From: an uncultured Verrucomicrobiales bacterium
Lineage (GTDB): Bacteria > Verrucomicrobiota > Verrucomicrobiia > Verrucomicrobiales > DEV007
NCBI GenBank assembly: GCA_937891465.1
Contig: CALAHF010000039.1
Span: 1-52,858 of the forward strand
Length of the DNA stretch: 52,858 nucleotides
Reading direction: 5' to 3'
The notes below the pieces were generated by a model that saw only the letters and a list, made by a program, of their open reading frames with translations, made no database searches and was not told the origin of the DNA. How positions within the stretch are numbered: the stretch's first letter is position 1; each line of letters opens with the position of its first letter. Made by a program: the position numbers and the translations under genes. Positions 7,529 to 52,011 of this stretch are shown in pieces.

Positions 7529-7556
7529 GGAGGCGTGTATTTAAAAAGGTTTTTTA

Positions 7557-7664
7557 CGATCCAATAGGGTTGGTTCGATGAATCAACAGGGTTGATTCGT
7601 GGGGCGGAAAATGACCGCTACGATCGGATAGGGTTGGTTCGTCGAATCAATAGGGTCGGTTCGT
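7557..7664. repeat. Dispersed palindromic repeat, locus 1 (two dimers, intergenic)
   Basis: Two copies of a ~45-bp dimer, starting at 7557 and 7621, are separated by about 19 bp. Each dimer is two half-units with the core ATAGGGTTGGTTCG or ACAGGGTTGATTCG, joined by TGAATC or CGAATC. The same cores occur at 12783-12952, 19128-19222, 42094-42193 and 48810-48930. Here they fill the space between yajC and secDF, inside what is normally one operon. Confidence 0.8.
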
Positions 7665-7689
7665 GAAGAGAGAAAAATCGTGCCGCAAA

Positions 7690-11674: not shown

Positions 11675-11704
11675 GCGGGATGGTAACACAAAGCTACGAA
11701 AATT

Positions 11705-11950
11705 TTAACCATGGATTGCATGGAGGACTTGGATTTTTCCTTTCCGTTCGAATATCAGTTTTTTATCGGAAAACTTCAAGGTGGTTCCAACGTTGAAAGG
11801 ATTGACTGAGGGATTGCAAGGAGTGAATGCGAGAATCTCAATGCAATCCAAATGTCAATCCATTGCCGTGATTCAGCCCCTTTACTCTCTCGGATAAAAA
11901 ACATCCCCGCCCAGAAATTTATCCATGTCCTCCATGCAATTCATGGTTAA
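11705..11950. repeat. 246-bp inverted-repeat element (MITE-like) between deoB and the PVC dehydrogenase
   Basis: A 24-bp arm at 11705-11728 (TTAACCATGGATTGCATGG...) returns as its reverse complement at 11927-11950 with one mismatch. Similarity continues inward: TGGAT close to each arm and TTTTTTATC(G/C)G about 35-40 bp inside. About 150 bp of unrelated sequence lie between. No coding frame of note is inside. It fills nearly the whole gap between two genes on the same strand. This is either a non-autonomous transposable element or two opposed copies of an intergenic repeat. Confidence 0.6.
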
Positions 11951-11954
11951 GAAT

Positions 11955-14426
11955 TCATTGCTTCGGTCCTTCCGCCCGCAGATACCCGATCAGATCCATT
12001 ATTTCGTTCTTCTCCAAAAGGTTGATTAGCCCCGGTGGCATGGTGGAAATATTGGGACCGGAGGGGTTTCGGTACTTGTCGCCGATGACGCGGTTGGGAT
12101 GAATCATTGATTCCAACATGTCGGACGGGCCGAATCGGGCACCGATTTGACTGAGGTCGGGGCCGAAAAAGGCGCGTTCGCTTGCGGCGTTGCCAGCTTT
12201 TTTGTGGCACACCGCGCACTGGGCTTTCACGTAAACGGCCGCCCCGCGTTTTACGTCTCGTTCTTTGGAAAAGTCCGTGTCGGCGAAATCTTCCATCGTC
12301 CAGTTTTTTACGAATTTTGCGGGATCAAGCTCTGCGATGATCGGGGGTTCTACTTTCGGCTGCTGAGGCGGAGTCAGAGCTGCGAATTGGATTTTTTCGT
12401 CGTCAGAAAGCCGCGCGACGAATTCCTTTCGCAAATCTTCGCCCGTGCGAATCCACCAACGGCCGCCCGCAAAGGAATCGAATTTTTTGAGACCGCCGAG
12501 ATAGCGTCGCCGATCGTCGGTCGTCCACATTTCGTCTTCGAGATACCGCAGAAAAACGAGGTAATGCGACCAATCCCGCGTGTCGTCGGATTCCTCGATC
12601 AACGTTAGCGTCGGCTGCAAAACTTTGTCCGATCGAAAATAAACCAGCATCTCGCACAGTTCGTGATTCACATTCTGCAGCGCGTGCGGGTAGAGCGGTT
12701 CCAGCGCATCGCGGAGCATTTGTTTTTCATCTTCCGTCGGAGGGCCTTGTCGGATGCAGGCGAGCTGAATCGCGCGCAAACGAGTCAATAGGGTCTGTTC
12801 ATCGAACGTACCCTGTTTATTTGGAGAAGGACTATCTTTCGGTTCCGCTGTCGCAGAATCCTCAGATCGCTGGCGAGCCAGCTTGCCGCCCTGTTTTGTT
12901 TCGTCTTTTCGAACAGACCCTGTTGGTTCATCGAACAGACCCTGTTCGATCGTTTCGGAGAGAATTTTTAGAATCGGTCCGCGATCTGATTTTCCGCCAA
13001 CACGGGCCAGCGCCATGAGCGCCCATGGATTTTGAGAATGTAGAATCGCCCCTTTCCAGCCCTCGATGTGATTCTCAATTGAAATTCGATTACTAAAACG
13101 AGAAACACGGTCTTGATGAAAAATTGAATTGAGGTAATCAGCATCATCCTTAACGGACGGCTTTCCCACATACGGCCCCGAAAAACCTTCTGGGCGCGGC
13201 AACTTTTTAGGCGAAGATTTTGGTTTCTCTCCCGTCCAACTCACCCGATATAGTGCACTCTGCGTCCGCCTTCCGCCCGTCGTGAACCACATCGCGCCAT
13301 CTGGGCCAAATACAAAATCGGTTAGGTTTAGTGGGCGACCAGACAGGAAATGCCGTGCTTCGGTTCCTTTGTAACTGGCTCCGTCGGGCTGAATATCGAC
13401 GGCCAGAATCCGGCCGTAGCTCCAGTCGGCGATCATGAAACTTGATCGCCACGGTTCGGGGAAATTGGATTTGTAGGCGAAGCCGACGCCGGTGGGACTG
13501 CCGAGGCCGACGTCGTAAACCGACGGCAAACTGTCTTCGTAATAGGCGGGCCACTTGCCGGTGCCGCGCCGCCAGCCGTATTCGCCGCCGGGGATGATGT
13601 GGAGAATTCGGGTCGGTTTATACCAAGCTAGACCGGCGTCCCACTCGCTGTCGGCATCATAGACGAAGGGCTCGCCATCGAGGTTGAAATCGATATCGAG
13701 CGGATTTCGCAAGCCGCCGCAAATGGCTTCGAATTTGGTGCCGTCTTTGTCGGTGCGGAGAATTTGGCCGGCGGGAACGGGGAGGCGATTCCATGAATCA
13801 TCCCACGGATTGGGAATGAGCTGGTCTTCGCCGTAGTTTTTGAACGGGGAATCAGGCGACGGATTTGCGAGTTTGGGATCGTTTCCATGAACGATGTAGA
13901 TCATGCCATCGGGGCCGAGTCGGAGATGGTTTCGCCCATGTCCCACCCCGCCACCGGTTAGGAGAAGCAACTTTTCCTCATCAAAAACGTCGTCTCCAGT
14001 CGTATCGCGGAGCCGGAAAAATCCTTTCGAATCGTTCGCGTTTACATACAGTGAATCGTAAGCCCAGAGCAGTCCGCGGGGCTCCCCGAGGTGATCGTTG
14101 ACGACTTTTACATCGACGACATCGGTTTTGTCTTCGCCGGAAAACGTGAGGCGCAAAATGCCTTTGTCCTCCATTCCGAGAAAGAGCCGGTCTTCGTCAT
14201 CGAAGCAGAGCGAAATCCACGAATCTTCTTCCTCGGCGGCAACACGGATGAGTTCGACTTTGAATCCCTCAGGCGCTTGAATTTCGGTTGGAGGCGGAAC
14301 CATTGCGGTGTTGCCGTCTTTTCGCCCCGCCATTTTCCACGAATCGTAGGCCGTTTTGTTGGGGACGTCTTGAGCTCTGGATGCGAGTGGAAAACAGAGA
14401 ATGAGAGCGAGGAGGTGCGATTTCAT
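11955..14426 (-). CDS. PVC-type secreted sugar-dehydrogenase-like beta-propeller with cytochrome c domain
   Basis: After a signal peptide (MKSHLLALILCFPLASRAQ; ATG at 14426, with 14444 as a longer alternative) comes a six-bladed PQQ/sorbosone-dehydrogenase-like propeller (about 40-410) with GHGRNHLRLGPDGMIY, GGLRNPLDIDFNLDG and PGGEYGWRRG. A helical repeat region follows (about 430-700). The C-terminus holds a single c-type haem site, CAVCHKKAGN, with FGPDLSQIGAR and a probable axial Met in NISTMPPGL. Proteins with this order are abundant in planctomycetes and verrucomicrobia; most have no proven substrate. About 50 residues in the helical region (roughly 490-550) come from an inserted dispersed repeat that keeps the frame open. 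A homologue without the insert would be expected to run directly from LSETI to TLLTRLRAIQLA. Confidence 0.88.
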   Translation of the reverse strand: MKSHLLALILCFPLASRAQDVPNKTAYDSWKMAGRKDGNTAMVPPPTEIQAPEGFKVELIRVAAEEEDSWISLCFDDEDRLFLGMEDKGILRLTFSGEDKTDVVDVKVVNDHLGEPRGLLWAYDSLYVNANDSKGFFRLRDTTGDDVFDEEKLLLLTGGGVGHGRNHLRLGPDGMIYIVHGNDPKLANPSPDSPFKNYGEDQLIPNPWDDSWNRLPVPAGQILRTDKDGTKFEAICGGLRNPLDIDFNLDGEPFVYDADSEWDAGLAWYKPTRILHIIPGGEYGWRRGTGKWPAYYEDSLPSVYDVGLGSPTGVGFAYKSNFPEPWRSSFMIADWSYGRILAVDIQPDGASYKGTEARHFLSGRPLNLTDFVFGPDGAMWFTTGGRRTQSALYRVSWTGEKPKSSPKKLPRPEGFSGPYVGKPSVKDDADYLNSIFHQDRVSRFSNRISIENHIEGWKGAILHSQNPWALMALARVGGKSDRGPILKILSETIEQGLFDEPTGSVRKDETKQGGKLARQRSEDSATAEPKDSPSPNKQGTFDEQTLLTRLRAIQLACIRQGPPTEDEKQMLRDALEPLYPHALQNVNHELCEMLVYFRSDKVLQPTLTLIEESDDTRDWSHYLVFLRYLEDEMWTTDDRRRYLGGLKKFDSFAGGRWWIRTGEDLRKEFVARLSDDEKIQFAALTPPQQPKVEPPIIAELDPAKFVKNWTMEDFADTDFSKERDVKRGAAVYVKAQCAVCHKKAGNAASERAFFGPDLSQIGARFGPSDMLESMIHPNRVIGDKYRNPSGPNISTMPPGLINLLEKNEIMDLIGYLRAEGPKQ
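12783..12952. repeat. Dispersed palindromic repeat, locus 2 (long form, inside the PVC dehydrogenase gene)
   Basis: The element starts with AATAGGGTCTGTTCATCGAA and ends with two copies of GAACAGACCCTGTT in the opposite orientation, so the ends form an inverted repeat. Between them lies TCAGATCGCTGGCGAGCCAG, almost identical to 48890-48910 inside phnE (there TCAGACCGCGGGCGAGCCAG). Read on the gene strand the element encodes KLARQRSED and GTFDEQTLLTR and contains no stop codon. Confidence 0.85.
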
Positions 14427-14538
14427 CGCTGATGATTGGACCACAAATTACGAGTCGAGGGAAGGGTTTTGGTAGCTTGATTTGCGGAGTCCAAGTTGAA
14501 GAATTGTTTCGCAACCTGAATCAGAGTAATATCCGTTG

Positions 14539-18359: not shown

Positions 18360-19135
18360 CTCAGCGCCTTTCTGATCCTGTTTTTTACAATCGGCGTTGG
18401 TCAATCCTAACCAACAGATTTAAGAGCAACGATGTTCGCGAACGGAGCCTCGACGAAATCTCTCATCAGCGGGTCATCGTTGTTGTCGCCCATCCGGATG
18501 ACGAAGTTTTTTGCTCGGGAATCATTTGCGAACTTGCCGAAAAACCGGACGTTGAGGTTCGTGTATTGTGCATGACTCGAGGAGAGGGCGGACCCCTTCC
18601 CCGTGGAATGTCACGCACTGAACTTGGAGTTAGGCGAGAAACGGAAATGCACAAGGCGTGCAATATTCTGGGCGTCTCCCGACTCAGTTTCCTCGATCAC
18701 AAAGACCCAGTGGGTGATGAATTTAGGACCTATCCACCTAACGTGTCGAAAAGGGAACTTACGGCTCAGTTGTTACATTATTTCCGTAAATTTGATACGG
18801 ATTTAATTCTCACACATGGCAGCTGGGGAGAGTATTGGCACCCCGCTCACCTCCTTCTGCATTCAGCGGTGATGCGTGCCGCCAAAGGCAGAAACGTTCT
18901 TACTTTTCAAGCCGAGAAAAAAGATCCAACCATTCCGGAAATCAACAACTCAGCTGATCCAGCTCATTTGAAATTCGATTTCTCGCATCATTTCAACACG
19001 CGATTGGAGGCTCTGGAAGCTCACGAATCTCAAATCGAGTTGTTTGGCCAGTTTGCGAACGGAACGCATGTGGGCTTTGTGAAGAAGACGGCGCGCGAGA
19101 ACCTTTCGATCAAATCGCTGGTCACGAAGCGATAG
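18329..19135 (+). CDS. PIG-L (LmbE-like) deacetylase frame lacking a normal start codon
   Basis: The frame carries the PIG-L signature VVVAHPDDEVFCSG (zinc ligands His-x-x-Asp-Glu) at about 18479-18520, then CMTRGEGG, SFLDHKD and a late His in SWGEYWHPAH. The family removes N-acetyl groups from GlcNAc conjugates. The frame is open from 18329, after a TGA at 18326-18328, but I find no ATG, GTG or TTG before the zinc motif; the first is a TTG at 18566, which would delete the active site. Read from the overlapping glycosyltransferase, a -1 slip on A-AAA-AAA (18329-18335) would give a glycosyltransferase-deacetylase fusion. Options are programmed frameshifting, a one-base mutation, or a rare start codon. 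The stop codon lies inside a dispersed repeat. Confidence 0.65.
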   Translation, partial: KKTGIPIRKIAQRLSDPVFYNRRWSILTNRFKSNDVRERSLDEISHQRVIVVVAHPDDEVFCSGIICELAEKPDVEVRVLCMTRGEGGPLPRGMSRTELGVRRETEMHKACNILGVSRLSFLDHKDPVGDEFRTYPPNVSKRELTAQLLHYFRKFDTDLILTHGSWGEYWHPAHLLLHSAVMRAAKGRNVLTFQAEKKDPTIPEINNSADPAHLKFDFSHHFNTRLEALEAHESQIELFGQFANGTHVGFVKKTARENLSIKSLVTKR

Positions 19136-19222
19136 GGTATGTTTATCGAACAGACCCTGTTGGATCGAAATCGCTCCACGATCAAGCAGGGTTGATTCGA
19201 CGAATCAAAAGGGTTGGTTCGT
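19128..19222. repeat. Dispersed palindromic repeat, locus 3 (between PIG-L and SGNH genes)
   Basis: Contains GATAGGGTATGTTTATCGAA, then the inverted unit ACAGACCCTGTTGGATCG, then AGCAGGGTTGATTCGACGAA and AAAAGGGTTGGTTCG. The TAG stop codon of the PIG-L frame (19133-19135) is part of the first ATAGGGT core, and the last unit ends a few bases before the next gene's ATG at 19226. The repeat therefore supplies both the end of one gene and the leader of the next. Confidence 0.8.
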
Positions 19223-42093: not shown

Positions 42094-42193
42094 ACGAACC
42101 AATAGGGTGTGTTCAACGAACATACCCTGTTGCTTCGAAACGGCTTTTCGATCGAATAGGGTTGATTCGTTGAACGAACCCTGTTGATTCGTG
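42094..42193. repeat. Dispersed palindromic repeat, locus 4 (between P-loop and YggU-like genes)
   Basis: Contains ACGAACCAATAGGGTGTGTT, inverted unit GAACATACCCTGTT, then CGATCGAATAGGGTTGATTC, inverted GAACGAACCCTGTT and a final GATTCGTG. Two dimers of opposite-facing units in about 100 bp. The last unit ends about 10 bases before the start codon at 42203, as at locus 3. Confidence 0.8.
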
Positions 42194-46298: not shown

Positions 46299-48242
46299 TC
46301 ACTTCAACGTTCGGAAATCCCCATTCCGAACAGTCACTTCCTGTTCATCGAGCAGTTCCAAAATTGGCATCATAAATCGCCGCGAGGTGCCTGCTGCATC
46401 TTTCAAGTCGCTCGCCGTCGCTTGTCCGTTTGCTTCAAGGCAGCCCACAACAGCACTGCGGATCGTTTCAAAACCGGTCGAGGAAATCACTGTCTTTTGA
46501 TCCAGCTCAACGACTTCTCCGACATTGATCAAAAACCGCATCGCTTTCCGATCGGCATCACCGGGCGCTAAATCGCCGCGGTTCGGAGGCGAAATCGGGT
46601 TTTCCGCCAGCATTCCGCGAATTCGATCGCCCGCTCGAACGAGATCGGTGGGCAGTTTCGGTTGGTGAGCCAAACTCCGAATCGCCGGACCTGCTTTTGC
46701 AAAATCCGAAGCCATGAGTCCTTCCAAAATCATGTCGAACAACTTCGGGAACGGCAGTTCCGGCACCACCATCGGCTCCAGTTCCTTGATCGACATCCCC
46801 GGTAAATCGGGATTGTTCTGATGGAATTCATTGATCTTATCGCCAGTGAAAGCCGAAATCTTCGACCACCAGACGGCATCGAAAATCCAGTTCCCGCTCC
46901 GCGATAGCTTTTTCGCAGCGACCAGTTCATCGACTTTCGTCGAAATCTCAGTCGCTGAAAATCGGGTCTTCGCCAACAATGCACTGGCCGCCATCGTTCG
47001 GTCCCGATTCATCTGCGAAACGATCAGCGATTCCAAATCGTCGAAATTATCCCGTCGTGCTTCCAGAAACGCCGCCTGAAACGGCTTTCGAAAGGCTCGT
47101 CGATTGGCATCTTCATCAAGGACAATTCCACCCGCCAGCGTCGTTCCGGCCGAGGCATTTCGCAGCACGAAACGATCACCAACAAACACATACACCGGCT
47201 CGCGAAACCGCAGCTCCGCTAAAACTGCGCCACCCGGTTCGAGCATGTTTTCTTTCCCGCCGAGAATGTGCATTCGCGCCGCGTAGCTGGCGCTTCCGTA
47301 GTGAAACAGCACCTCGCGTCCTGACTTCACCGGCTTTGTCGAATTCCGTTGACCCCGCACTTCTCGATCACTTTTTTCCAAAAGCACATCGATCGCGGTG
47401 ACCGCATCGCCCAGTTTCGGATCGGTGATTACATTGCCCTTCGCAATTCCCTCAACTCCGCGTGATGCCACGCTGATTCCAGTCAAATTCGCCGCTGTCC
47501 GCGTTCCCGGAAACACCGTGTTCTCATCATTTTTATGAGACTGCACGTTCCGAATGTGTGCTTTTAAGCCCGATGGCTGAACCACCAAATCCGAACCGGA
47601 TTCAATTCTTCCATCGATCAAGGTGCCCGTCACCACGGTTCCAACGCCCTTGATCGAAAATGCCCGATCGACTGGCAAACGCGGCTTTTCGGAATCCCGA
47701 ACCGTTGGAGACTTTGAAAGTATCTCCGCGATTTTTGATTTCAGGTCTTCAATTCCCGCTCCCGTGTGAGACGAAGTCGGGACGATTTGAATATTCTCCC
47801 ACGGCCCACCCGCGAGATTTTCCTCCAAATCCATCAGCACCAAATCGAGATCATCTACCAAATCTAATTTTGTCAGCGCCACGATCGCATTTGGCACCTT
47901 CAGATAATTCAAAATCTGATAATGCTCCTCCGTCTGAGGCATCCACCCGTCATCCGCGGCCACGACAAAAACCGCGATATCGATCGATCCGACACCTGCG
48001 ACCATGTTTTTCACAAAATCCGAATGACCCGGCACATCGACAATCCCGAGATTCAATTCATCGCCCGAATCATCTGTCGCAGGCAGCGCTAGATTCGCAA
48101 AGCCCAGTTCAATCGTCATTCCCCGCGCTTTCTCCTCCGGAAGTCGATCCGGATCGGTCCCCGTCAACGCCTTCACGAGCGAGCTTTTTCCGTGGTCAAT
48201 ATGACCGGCAGTTCCGAGGATAAAATGGCGGGTTTCAGACAT
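46299..48242 (-). CDS. selB: Selenocysteine-specific translation elongation factor SelB
   Basis: SelB delivers Sec-tRNA(Sec) to ribosomes at UGA codons bearing a SECIS hairpin. The 647-residue protein has the EF-Tu-like GTPase domain: [19 protein letters not shown] (G1, residues 10-28), the SelB-specific [29 protein letters not shown] (G3) and LTKLDLVD (G4), then beta-barrel domains and winged-helix repeats at the C-terminus ending with [20 protein letters not shown], the SECIS-binding end. Its presence shows that the organism uses selenocysteine. selA, selD and the Sec tRNA are not seen in the window. It converges with the TGA-containing gene at 45457-46272, whose stop is 26 bp away. Upstream is the phn operon. 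Confidence 0.95.
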
Positions 48243-48298: not shown

Positions 48299-49345
48299 TC
48301 ATCGGCGCAATCGTTGCCGAATCCAAGTCGACAGCAAATCGCCGACCATGATGACTGATGAGCCGAGGAGCACGTAAAACAGCATTCGATCCCAGAAAAA
48401 GCCCTTCGTCATCATCATCAAGTGTCCCAGCGTCAGGACACCGAGCATTCCGAGAACTGTTGCGTCTTTCACGCAGGTTTCCCAGCGGTAGAAAAAGTAG
48501 ATCAAAAAGCGATTGAAGACCGCGGGGAAAATTACGAGGCCAAACACCTTTTTCCGGCCGAATCCATTTGCGAATGCCTGTTCAGCGGCGCGGGTGTCGG
48601 CATTCTCCACGACCTCGCCGAACAACCGTCCCAGAATGCCAAAATTATGAATCGCCAGTGCCAAAACTAGCGGCCAGAACTGCAAGCCCAGTAGCGAAAT
48701 CAGCAAAAATGCCAAAATATATTCAGGAATCGCCCGTGCCAGGACGAATAGAAACCGAGTCGCTGGTCCAAGAATGAGGCCACGAAAATCAAAGCTGGAA
48801 GGCGATTTTCGATCCAATAGGGTTGGTTCGTCGAACTTACCCTCTATGTTCGTAACAGGGACATCTTGCGATTGCAGGTTCCTGCCATCTTCAGACCGCG
48901 GGCGAGCCAGCTTTTGTCCCTGTTGGTTCGTTTTTTTGCCGGAGAATATTCCAAACGGATCGCGACGGCCCAGCTGCCGGCTTGCCAATGGTAAAAACGG
49001 AAGCACGAAAATCGTCGACAAAATGATCGCGGCACAGGCAATTCCGATCGTGATAGCGAGTGCCGTAAATCCCTTATCGGTGAATAAATCCCACGCCCAC
49101 GGAATCGATTCGCTCCAATCGCCAGATTTTCGAACAGGGGATGGAGTCAGGTCGCCGAGGAAATTCAGGAAATTTTGCCAACGCCGCGCGAACGGCAGGC
49201 GGCCGGTTAATTTTCCGGCTGAAAGCCACGCCCAAACGGTGAGTCCGAGCATCAGAAGCGCGCTTCCTTCGACAAATCGGGAACGCGATCGGCCTCGTCG
49301 GAGGACGTCGATTCGAGCCTGGCGATCTGGAGAAGAATGGGTCAT
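48299..49345 (-). CDS. phnE: Phosphonate-type ABC transporter permease PhnE (second copy), with in-frame repeat insertion
   Basis: A 348-residue inner-membrane permease. After a cytosolic N-terminus come membrane segments (SALLMLGLTVWAWLSAGKL, AITIGIACAAIILSTIFVLP, FLFVLARAIPEYILAFLLIS) and the EAA-type loop AAEQAFANGFGRKKVFGLVI that contacts the ATPase, as in PhnE. Aligned with its neighbour at 49342-50223, it contains about 45 extra residues (roughly 135-182) in the loop between GIFSG and FDFRGLILGP; these derive from a dispersed repeat (KLARPRSED, KFDEPTLLDRK). The start overlaps the stop of the first phnE by 4 bases (ATGA), so translation is coupled. Last gene of the phnD-C-E-E operon. 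Confidence 0.88.
   Translation of the reverse strand: MTHSSPDRQARIDVLRRGRSRSRFVEGSALLMLGLTVWAWLSAGKLTGRLPFARRWQNFLNFLGDLTPSPVRKSGDWSESIPWAWDLFTDKGFTALAITIGIACAAIILSTIFVLPFLPLASRQLGRRDPFGIFSGKKTNQQGQKLARPRSEDGRNLQSQDVPVTNIEGKFDEPTLLDRKSPSSFDFRGLILGPATRFLFVLARAIPEYILAFLLISLLGLQFWPLVLALAIHNFGILGRLFGEVVENADTRAAEQAFANGFGRKKVFGLVIFPAVFNRFLIYFFYRWETCVKDATVLGMLGVLTLGHLMMMTKGFFWDRMLFYVLLGSSVIMVGDLLSTWIRQRLRR
48810..48930. repeat. Dispersed palindromic repeat, locus 5 (long form, inside phnE)
   Basis: Begins CGATCCAATAGGGTTGGTTC, GTCGAACTTACCC, and ends GTCCCTGTTGGTTCG, so the ends are inverted copies. The internal TTCAGACCGCGGGCGAGCCA block is shared with locus 2. It adds an uninterrupted peptide to the permease in a loop between membrane helices. 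Confidence 0.85.
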
Positions 49346-50223
49346 GCGTGAGTCGGGTTGAGTCGTCTTCGAAGGCCCGCGCCCCAGAGATCAACGACGA
49401 CAATCATCGCTAACAGGAGATAAAAGTAGGTCCACACCTCGTGGTAATAAAATTCTTCATGGGACAGCTGAATGTAGAGTCCGATGGTTTCAATGCCGAC
49501 GAACCCAAGCACGGCCGAAGCTCGCAGCGCGCATTCGAATCGATAAAACGAATACGTGATCAAATCGGGGATGGCACGTGGGAAGATTCCGACGAGAAAC
49601 GTTTGCACAGGACGATGGCCGATCGCTTTCAAAGCAGATGCCGAATCGCGTGCTTCTTCATCGATGATTTCGGAGAATACTTTTCCCAGGGTTCCAGCAA
49701 ACGGGATCGCCAGTGAAACCATTCCAGCCAGGGGAGAAACGCCAAGCGCGGACAAAATCAGAAGGGCCCAAATCAATTCGTGGATCGATCGCGCAAACGA
49801 CATCACGAATCGGGAGACGACAAAAACCGTGCGAAGGACGAATTTTAAACCGCGACCGCAGGGTTCCGGCCACCAGGCTGATGAGCCGAAGAAGCCAAGG
49901 ATCAGCGCAGTGGGAACCGCCATGCTCATTGCTGCAACAGCGAATCGAAGCGTGTAGAAAAGCCCTTTGACGCCTTTCACCCAAATGTGATCAGCGGTAT
50001 CAGGAACGGAATCGTCCTGATAATCCATCGCCGGCGAAATGGCGGCAGAAAAGAATTTCCCTGCGCGATCCCAGCGCAGCGAATCTGGCGGAATTAATCC
50101 CGAAGGCGTGAGTTTGAGAAAGTAAGCACAGACCAGGAAAATAATCGCAGCGCCCAAGAACACCCAGCGACGTCGGCCGGGGAAAATGGGTGGCTTTACT
50201 GCGATTTTTTTCGAATCACGCAT
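49342..50223 (-). CDS. phnE: Phosphonate-type ABC transporter permease PhnE (first copy)
   Basis: A 293-residue permease with about six hydrophobic helices (RRRWVFLGAAIIFLVCAYFL, LRFAVAAMSMAVPTALILGF, ELIWALLILSALGVSPLAGM) and the EAA loop DSASALKAIGHRPVQTFLVG followed by FPRAIPDLITYSFYRFE, the PhnE pattern. It partners with the second PhnE, forming a heterodimeric channel for the PhnC ATPase. It overlaps phnC by 8 bases and the next phnE by 4, so the genes are translationally coupled. Substrate may be phosphonate, phosphite or phosphate; no C-P lyase or phosphonatase gene is in view. Confidence 0.92.
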   Translation of the reverse strand: MRDSKKIAVKPPIFPGRRRWVFLGAAIIFLVCAYFLKLTPSGLIPPDSLRWDRAGKFFSAAISPAMDYQDDSVPDTADHIWVKGVKGLFYTLRFAVAAMSMAVPTALILGFFGSSAWWPEPCGRGLKFVLRTVFVVSRFVMSFARSIHELIWALLILSALGVSPLAGMVSLAIPFAGTLGKVFSEIIDEEARDSASALKAIGHRPVQTFLVGIFPRAIPDLITYSFYRFECALRASAVLGFVGIETIGLYIQLSHEEFYYHEVWTYFYLLLAMIVVVDLWGAGLRRRLNPTHA

Positions 50224-50989
50224 CAGTCATCATTTCAGATTCGGTCAGTTCGTAGAGTGCCTTCATGTCCGATTCGGGAATCGTTTCAGGGGCTGCGTCG
50301 ACGACGATTTTGCCAGAACGCAATCCGACAAGTCGCGGGAAAAATTCGCGGGCGAGTTCGAGGTTATGCAAACTGACGACGAGCGTAAAATTTTCCTCTT
50401 TGGACAAGGTTGAAAGCAGCTGGACGGTGTCGCGCGCTCGGGCGGGATCGACGGCGGAGACCGGTTCGTCGGCGAGAATAGCCTCGGGTTTTTGAAATAA
50501 GGCCCGTGCAATGGCAACGCGCTGTTGTTGGCCGCCGGAAAGTTGATCGGTTCGGGCGTAGAGTTTTTCTTCGATCCCAACGCGATCTAAAATTTCGTGA
50601 ATTTCGCGAACGTCTTCTTTCGACGGGAAAATCATGTCCCTCAAGGAACGCAGAGTGCTGCGTTTTCCGCCCCGTCCGAGGATGACATTTTGTAAAACGG
50701 AGATGTTGGGGACCAGCCCGAGATGCTGGGGAATAAAGGCAATTCGGGATCGAAGCTTTCGTAAATCCCTGGCTCCGAATTGTAGAACAGAGTCTCCAAA
50801 AAGGGAGACGGTTCCGGATACGGGCGCACGCATCGTGTTTAACGTGCGAAGCAGCGTCGTCTTTCCGCTTCCGCTGGGGCCAATTAGCGCAACGCGTTCG
50901 CCTTCGGAAATTTCGAGCGACACGTCATCAACTGCGGCGAGTTCTCCGAACCGGCAGGTGATATTTTCGACTTGGAAAGCGCGGGGCAT
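50216..50989 (-). CDS. phnC: Phosphonate-type ABC transporter ATP-binding protein PhnC
   Basis: A 257-residue ABC ATPase with Walker A GPSGSGKTTLL, Q-loop IPQHLGLVPNISVLQNVILG, signature LSGGQQQRVAIARAL, Walker B AILADEPVSAVD and switch His in VVSLHNLELAREF. IAFIPQHLGLVPN, with the SLR DMIFP segment that follows, is the usual PhnC context. It energises the two PhnE permeases encoded downstream. A hairpin between phnD and phnC may lower its expression relative to phnD. Confidence 0.93.
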   Translation of the reverse strand: MPRAFQVENITCRFGELAAVDDVSLEISEGERVALIGPSGSGKTTLLRTLNTMRAPVSGTVSLFGDSVLQFGARDLRKLRSRIAFIPQHLGLVPNISVLQNVILGRGGKRSTLRSLRDMIFPSKEDVREIHEILDRVGIEEKLYARTDQLSGGQQQRVAIARALFQKPEAILADEPVSAVDPARARDTVQLLSTLSKEENFTLVVSLHNLELAREFFPRLVGLRSGKIVVDAAPETIPESDMKALYELTESEMMTDA

Positions 50990-51001
50990 TCAGAGAGAAT
51001 A

Positions 51002-51037
51002 AAGCAGGGCCGACGATTTTCACCGCCGACCCCGCTT
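51002..51037 (-). terminator. Hairpin between phnD and phnC (possible attenuator)
   Basis: On the minus strand AAGCGGGGTCG (51037-51027) pairs with CGGCCCTGCTT (51012-51002) over 11 bp with two G-U pairs and a 14-base loop, followed by TATTCTC, only weakly U-rich. It sits between phnD and phnC, where partial termination or RNA protection would let the binding protein be made in excess over the ATPase and permeases, as is usual for ABC importers. Confidence 0.55.
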
Positions 51038-51066
51038 AAATTTAGAATTTTAGCGAAGCGTGAGGC

Positions 51067-52011
51067 TTATTCTTCGATGAGCCCAACTTTCACTGCGACA
51101 TCTTTGATGCCGTCGAATTCTTCGTTCCTCGCAGGAACGATTCCACTGCGATTGATCGCTTCAAGAACGCCGTCGCCTTCCTGAGCAGCAACAAGTGCGT
51201 CCTGCGCTTTTGCAAAGAAGCTATCGCCGAATGCAGCCTTGGCATCCGGATGAATCGTCCAGTTGTAGTCCGCGTAGTAGGGCGTCGTCCAAATGATCTT
51301 GGTGTTGTTTTTCACCTTCTCATTCGTCGCGACTTCCTTGTCGTAGGCTTTGTAGCTGAGTGCTCCTACCTGGAACGTTCCGTCTGCAACTGAGTTTGCA
51401 GTCGCAACGTGACCGCCTGATGCCTGGAAGTTCTCGCCTTTGGTGAACCAATCGCCGGGAAGTTTGCCAGTGTTTTTCAGAATGAAATATGAAGGCATGA
51501 GACGACCCGAAGTGGAACCAGTGGAACCAAACGTGAAGTTCAAATCTTTGATTGCTTCAGGAAATTCATCGCCCGGCTCGATCGCTACGTCTTTGTGAGC
51601 GATGAAGTAAGACTTGTATTTTGGATCTTCAACACCTTGCGCGATGGCTTCAGCGCCTGGCACGGCCATGCGAGCCTGAACTCCCGATAAACCACCAAAC
51701 CAGACAAGATGGGCTTCGCCATTCTTGAATTTTTGAATCGCGTCGGAGTAGTCTTTTGAAAATTGAAACTCAGCTTTGACTCCCAGCTTACTGCTGAGAT
51801 ATGCCGCTACCTTGTCGAATTTCGGTTTCTGATCCGTGATCTTTTCATCCGGGATCGCCGAGATGACAAGAACCGCTTCTGAAGATACATCCCCTGATGA
51901 TTGAGGATTTTCTGTTGCTGTGGTCGAACTGCCCTCTTTATCGCCGCAGCTGATGAGAGAAATTGACGTTACCGCTGCCAGACCGACGCGTGAAATAAGT
52001 GATTTCAGCAT
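51067..52011 (-). CDS. phnD: Phosphonate-type ABC transporter substrate-binding lipoprotein PhnD
   Basis: A 314-residue binding protein. The N-terminus MLKSLISRVGLAAVTSISLI ends in a lipobox (LISC, Cys22), so it is anchored as a lipoprotein rather than free in the periplasm like E. coli PhnD. The mature part carries VLVISAIPDEKITDQKP, LVWFGGLSGVQAR and FTFGSTGSTSGRLMPSYF, where the Ser/Thr-rich turn binds the phosphonate or phosphate oxyanion in the family. A strong ribosome site, AGGAGGG, lies 11 bases before the ATG on the minus strand. First gene of the phn operon; regulation by phosphate is likely from the family, but I could not identify a clear Pho box. Confidence 0.92.
   Translation of the reverse strand: MLKSLISRVGLAAVTSISLISCGDKEGSSTTATENPQSSGDVSSEAVLVISAIPDEKITDQKPKFDKVAAYLSSKLGVKAEFQFSKDYSDAIQKFKNGEAHLVWFGGLSGVQARMAVPGAEAIAQGVEDPKYKSYFIAHKDVAIEPGDEFPEAIKDLNFTFGSTGSTSGRLMPSYFILKNTGKLPGDWFTKGENFQASGGHVATANSVADGTFQVGALSYKAYDKEVATNEKVKNNTKIIWTTPYYADYNWTIHPDAKAAFGDSFFAKAQDALVAAQEGDGVLEAINRSGIVPARNEEFDGIKDVAVKVGLIEE

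Follow-up and report, generated by a model that had tools for sequence, protein, structure and literature searches.

A two-module palindromic repeat family in a Verrucomicrobiales bacterium and its in-frame copy in an ABC permease loop

Related palindromic elements and their relation to the permease insert

Palindromic repeats that are read in frame as part of a protein are best known from Rickettsia. The Rickettsia palindromic elements (RPEs) are small palindromic elements fused in frame inside genes of this host, with enzymatic activity kept in one tested case, according to the parts of the two sources that treat them (PMC2229807, PMC10969869). The DNA analyzed here (the window, a stretch of 52,858 nucleotides that forms contig C39 of a 5.97 Mb genome assembled in 229 contigs) carries an element of similar behavior inside an ABC permease gene, and units of the same family elsewhere:

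48299-49345, reverse strand: ABC permease gene of the PhnE/TIGR01097 type that carries the insert; intact ORF of 348 aa
48810-48933, reverse strand: full repeat copy (modules A and B) in the permease gene, 132.7 bits with the R1 covariance model
48853-48930, reverse strand: module A, 78 nt or 26 codons, with an outer stem (CAACAGGGACA/TGTCCCTGTT) and two inner hairpins; absent from the orthologue in the same-genus genome G001
48810-48852, reverse strand: module B, a 43-nt palindrome that encodes part of NIEGKFDEPTLLDR; the orthologous B is present in G001
12781-12906, reverse strand: second full copy (A and B), in frame in the gene for a PVC-type heme-binding protein (11955-14444)
12910-12952, reverse strand: further B-type half units directly beside the second full copy, in the same heme-protein gene (EQGLFDEPTGSVR)
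7555-7665, forward strand: two tandem B units between two genes that, from their ORF sequences, we take to be secDF-like and yajC-like
19124-19222, forward strand: two B units, between or at the ends of two genes
42095-42137, forward strand: intergenic B unit
42149-42191, forward strand: B unit in tandem with the preceding one, across an 11-nt linker

The element shares with RPEs a length of about 100-150 nt, terminal inverted repeats and strong stem-loops, as well as in-frame fusion in unrelated protein genes alongside intergenic copies, as these traits are given in the relevant parts of PMC2229807 and PMC10969869. At 124 nt, it falls within the roughly 105-146 nt of RPE palindromes with terminal inverted repeats, and five full copies in the middle of genes, from two species, are in frame, with flanks that align to relatives lacking the segment. 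In contrast to RPEs, its carrier belongs to the Verrucomicrobiales, in another phylum, and the element consists of two nested modules, of which the smaller is far more numerous and apparently older, and is mostly intergenic. We regard it as RPE-like in behavior and do not file it as an RPE.

Other described repeats share part of this architecture. The BOX elements of Streptococcus pneumoniae are likewise modular, with tandem units, a variable number of the middle unit and occasional ORF formation, in the part of PMC3049150 devoted to them; the comparison is one of architecture, and host, module order and stand-alone use differ, with A lying inside or before B here and B also occurring alone. 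Short palindromes at high copy and dimers in inverted orientation are common to the present family and to REP/BIME sequences with their RAYT genes (GTAG and CGTC super-families), and the avoidance of complementary inner dinucleotides in B (2 of 59 units against 10.7 expected) resembles the heterodimer preference that PMC3733652 describes for REP/BIME. Unlike in REP/RAYT systems, the B ends carry no GTAG or CGTC tag in the consensus (CGA...TCG), and the lone RAYT gene found is unflanked by A or B. GTAG repeats are mentioned for the PVC superphylum in a part of that source (PMC3733652), and the elements here are not those. With ERIC and other MITEs (Correia/NEMIS, RUP, YPAL), finally, there is agreement in size, terminal inverted repeats, intergenic bias and occasional in-frame ORF fusion, as outlined in part of PMC2229807, whereas neither a parent insertion sequence nor a target-site duplication was found here. 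Search listings brought up no publication that describes repeats of this kind in Verrucomicrobiota.

The element shows the MITE traits of small size, many copies, inverted repeats at its ends and no transposase encoded within it. A search for Y1_Tnp alone returned no parent insertion sequence and, as candidate mobiliser, a single RAYT gene on contig C171 with no A or B hit in its locus; a RAYT-driven REP was rejected on these grounds. This RAYT-like gene (L173, 1320-2040) seemingly has its own unrelated palindromes around it. The check for a target-site duplication covered flank composition and made none legible, the nearest relative being too diverged to serve as an empty site. The end sequence to match in any mobiliser gene is CGAWCCAAYAGGG.

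The host permease gene and its transporter

A sequence-only reading of the window had described an extra in-frame segment in the second PhnE gene of an operon, and the intact 348-aa reading frame bears this out. The gene has dN 0.20 and dS 1.42 against its orthologue in the same-genus genome G001 (316 codons), and the neighboring permease gives dN 0.11 and dS 2.41 in a comparison of the same kind. Purifying selection acts on the permease gene. By hydropathy, the insert, with the peptide stretches TNQQGQKLARPRSED and FDEPTLLDRK, is placed in the loop between the hydrophobic segments 90-125 and 197-243. An AlphaFold model of the permease, calculated without an alignment, reached a mean pLDDT of 50.8 and is too poor for use; its lowest scores (about 31-39) fall on the insert region, which lacks secondary structure there. 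This fits a disordered loop but proves nothing. A sequence search returned no solved homologue of the permease.

The 'Phn' ABC operon (46299-48242 and 48299-52011) directly adjoins selB (TIGR00475, 295.5 bits against a cut-off of 242.25), and the score of its binding protein for TIGR04553 (putative selenate) lies above the threshold, at 253.1 against 250 bits. Based on these two observations, the phosphonate label may be wrong, and the transporter is probably a selenium uptake system. The description of the permease as an 'essential-type' transport protein is not supported, as the annotation points to an accessory uptake system.

Copies, structure and placement of the repeat family

The reported sharing of DNA with a second locus was verified over 38 nt (12858-12895) at 82% identity, with GGCGAGCCAGCTT exact at both sites. 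The two peptides align as proposed (KLARPRSED/KLARQRSED, followed by FDEPTLLDR/FDEQTLLTR), with 17 residues in between instead of about 14. The sharing goes far beyond chance: a search of the own genome (G000) with the segment gave 47 BLAST matches, and with the covariance model R1, 49 hits reached at least 90 bits and a further nine scored from 56 to 76. R1 was built from 28 copies, the second copy in each of L030, L034 and L037 (3 of 31 candidates) having been left out of its alignment (A1), and was scored on the best 150 candidates of the own genome, so that the B counts obtained there are floors. The full element spans about 124 nt, has the ends CGAACCAACAGGG and CCCTATTGGATCG, and folds with z-scores of -3.97 as DNA and -3.78 as RNA. 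The observation made in the sequence-only reading was confirmed, but the palindromic module at 48810-48852, which also belongs to the element, had been left unseparated.

Module A forms a three-way junction in which an outer stem closes two inner hairpins. Across the 28 copies, 91.3% of its paired cells hold standard pairs, compared with 81.6% in shuffled alignments; both sides change in 10 of the 22 pairs, double changes occupy 52 cells against 20.1 in shuffles, and pairing is much worse in every register slid by 1-3 columns. G-T pairs outnumber A-C pairs on the element strand by 46 to 12 (26 to 12 without column pair 42-76), a hint that structure matters on one strand, be it as RNA or as single-stranded DNA. 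No Rfam family was matched in a permissive search of 48600-49100 or in a gathering-threshold search of six sources, and neither the phage nor the plasmid collection gave a match that would speak for such an origin.

Module B has the consensus CGAWCCAAYAGGGTnnRTTCGnYGAACnnACCCTRTTGGWTCG, beginning with CGA and ending with TCG, and occurs alone as well as in tandem, with linkers of 11 nt in 18 of 20 cases. In a 453 kb sample made up of the window and parts of three contigs (C80 1-220,000, C97 1-160,000 and C164 1-20,000), we counted 116 B units, distributed over 72 loci, but zero in reversed control sequence, which extrapolates to roughly 1,500 in the whole genome. The facing inner dinucleotides of B are complementary in the 2 of 59 units mentioned above (permutation, p = 0.0003); perfect palindromes seem to be avoided, either purged or never made. 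The 7-nt core of B is found in both directions (ACCCTRT, ACAGGGT) between the same arms, as in 7555-7665 versus 42095-42137. Such a swap exchanges TLL for TGS in the peptide and looks like the product of small inversions. Close to where the heme-protein gene ends, there is a different inverted repeat of 35 nt (11700-11734 and 11921-11955), whose arms are 89% complementary and 186 nt apart, and one of the CACGGGTTTTTCAACCCGTG type lies beside an A and B copy in the Verrucomicrobiales MAG SS_bin_30 (L051, 4425-4500).

Placement mostly between genes is usual for REP- and MITE-like repeats. In the sample, which is 90% coding, 76 of the 116 B units fall between genes, 22 extend across a gene end and 18 are within called genes, as judged with a simple home-made gene caller that is unreliable at starts. 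The 72 loci comprise 36 tandem, 15 convergent and 9 divergent gaps, 11 positions in genes and one at an edge, while the 189 available gaps of at least 60 nt comprise 105 tandem, 31 convergent and 53 divergent ones; B is depleted from genes and from divergent gaps. The tracts that flank B are rich in T ahead of it and in A behind it, opposite to the order in an intrinsic terminator, a role that was rejected. At L021 (2010-2132) and L028 (2075-2194), elements encode the C-terminal end of one gene product, stop codon included, and may also provide the start of another gene, presumably RluA-like.

Reading frame, orthologous sites and possible origins of the insert

Within the fetched loci, 55 full or near-full copies were located, and figures on frame and length are from the 44 that reach both ends of the model. 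Four full copies in the own genome lie in the middle of genes, with both flanks aligned to relatives: those of the permease and the PVC-type heme protein in the window, a PQQ/GSDH-type dehydrogenase (L011) and a ParA-like ATPase (L036). A fifth is found in G001 (L062), in a gene presumably encoding a DUF1592-like protein. All five, from two species, share frame and orientation (ACG AAC CAA CAG GGN), giving the peptide TNQQG..KLAR.RSED and close variants. This 5/5 leaves aside five N-terminal cases. Two of them, L103 and L107, are called partial by the gene caller but look real: the element, in the same frame, separates the start codon from the hydrophobic core of a signal peptide, with an ATG upstream, a signal-peptide or lipobox core downstream and, in L107, a Shine-Dalgarno-like stretch. 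L019 and L101, among six mid-gene calls, are probably start errors of the gene caller; L108 is an ambiguous, reverse-oriented gene-start case, and the other gene-start cases are ambiguous as well, some of them reversed.

The sequence-only reading is supported insofar as a single repeat family has inserted in frame into proteins unrelated to one another, at loops and linkers. Its further suggestion, selection for or design of an element translatable in one frame, is not borne out. Most copies lie outside genes; 13 of the 44 full copies have frame-shifting lengths, the other 31 keeping the register; only 15 of the 44 leave the used frame open, compared with 23 for another frame, so that frame conservation across copies in general was rejected; and B units in other genes (L122, L123 and a presumably DnaE-like gene in L051) are read in other frames. 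Among the six frames, hydrophilicity is highest in the used one (mean GRAVY -0.99), and the middle of its peptide varies freely across copies. If open frames were sampled independently, five of five in one frame would have a chance of about 0.001 by hand arithmetic from frame openness, a figure that assumes an independence the permease and PQQ-dehydrogenase copies may not have. The bias exceeds what open frames alone predict, leaving room for something beyond stop-codon filtering.

Absence from the operon neighbor, the comparison drawn originally, is weak evidence, and orthologues proper are more telling. Neither module is present in any of the 14 aligned permease orthologues from other genera (of 17 other genomes with a hit, G003, G006 and G039 were left out of the alignment). 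The G001 orthologue (L073) has a shorter piece: B alone, at exactly the same place and in frame (GKETNQQGAFAKPTLLDR), 78 nt or 26 codons shorter. The ParA-like and heme-protein genes also show B-type DNA in G001 and A and B in G000, and the more distant relatives compared lack the segment, with one ParA-like alignment (L153) failing to span the site; at the ParA-like gene, the extra DNA in G000 is longer than one module A, in contrast to the exact 26-codon step at the permease. The reverse is seen in the DUF1592-like gene, where G001 has the in-frame full copy and G000 no recognizable module, being 26 codons shorter.

R1 matched 3 of 57 genomes; full A and B copies are confined to G000 and G001, the latter with 14 hits of at least 57 bits, and G012 has the B part alone. 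A class-wide sample gave an R1 match in one of 286 genomes, the own one. B is found in 22 of 58 family genomes and 4 of 18 genera, patchily between related genomes. As L056 of G001 and L051 of SS_bin_30 carry the same A and B copy, G001 is very probably that MAG. From this distribution, B would be the older module, common to several genera of the family, and A a younger one, found only in this genus. B entered the permease loop in a common ancestor, and A most likely entered B later. The permease and PQQ-dehydrogenase copies are close in the A core (distance 0.105, compared with a mean of 0.28 for all pairs) but not in B (0.31), which fits the entry of A into resident B units. Distances correlate at 0.14 between the halves of B, 0.13 between A and B, and 0.50 between the halves of A; the shortness and noise of B preclude a firm history of A versus B. 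That A is a separate mobile structured unit homing into resident B palindromes, in a two-step repeat-in-repeat expansion of proteins, we offer tentatively, as a possible but doubtful account.

Taken together, we think it very likely that the permease insert belongs to a non-autonomous palindromic repeat family of high copy number, similar to MITEs or RPEs, whose in-gene copies are those that pass a survival filter. Before the two sampled species diverged, B would have inserted into the permease loop that follows the second hydrophobic segment and precedes the third, and A would then have inserted into B in this species, adding exactly 26 codons. Insertions that shift the frame, strike folded regions or bring in stop codons would be lost, and those yielding a hydrophilic, flexible loop at surface positions would survive. 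For the permease segment, translation into a disordered loop of little consequence is the likeliest outcome. The frame bias can be accounted for by a filter that admits hydrophilic, stop-free loop insertions in register, without peptide selection, and such a filter on a selfish element explains it better. Retention of the element for a useful charged peptide, serving as a loop, interaction or proteolytic site, appears quite improbable: the common frame and orientation of the five mid-gene copies and two N-terminal fusions, the purifying selection on the host gene and the persistence of in-gene B in two diverged species agree with it, but the host proteins are unrelated, and the mostly extragenic copies, the frame open in 15 of 44, the variable peptide middle and the B units read in other frames all argue against it.

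The covarying three-way junction and the G-T excess would also suit a repeat that serves the host chiefly as a structural signal in RNA or DNA (an mRNA end, a protein-binding or a nucleoid site), with in-gene copies as by-products, as would the 15 of 72 sampled loci in convergent gaps, a class that makes up 31 of the 189 gaps. However, the family matches nothing in Rfam and is patchy between related genomes, and purging of selfish repeats also results in placement downstream of genes; we consider such a host signal unlikely. Somewhat less unlikely, yet still not favored, is that A was ancestral at the permease site and was lost in G001 instead of gained in G000. The full copies elsewhere in G001 indicate that A existed in the genus, but at 3/3 compared sites the loss would have to fall in the same lineage, and the A cores of the permease and PQQ-dehydrogenase copies are recent relatives. 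An assembly artefact or a pseudogene can practically be dismissed: assemblies do fail at repeats and this one has 229 contigs, but the insert lies in the interior of a 53 kb contig, the reading frame is unbroken with dN well below dS, and B was found independently at the same site in another genome.

With the repeat-derived insert as the preferred explanation, the Verrucomicrobiota would provide a second, unrelated-looking case of in-frame coding palindromes. If A does home into B, then, since B already lies in a tolerated register in some genes, A could add 26-codon blocks repeatedly without breaking proteins; this would be a two-step, repeat-in-repeat route to protein expansion by a fixed block. 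For annotators, loops with KLARxRSED...FDExTLLxR in this lineage are to be read as repeat-derived. The same permease site with B only (ancestor-like) in one species and with A and B (derived) in the other allows a direct test of tolerated junk versus selected part.
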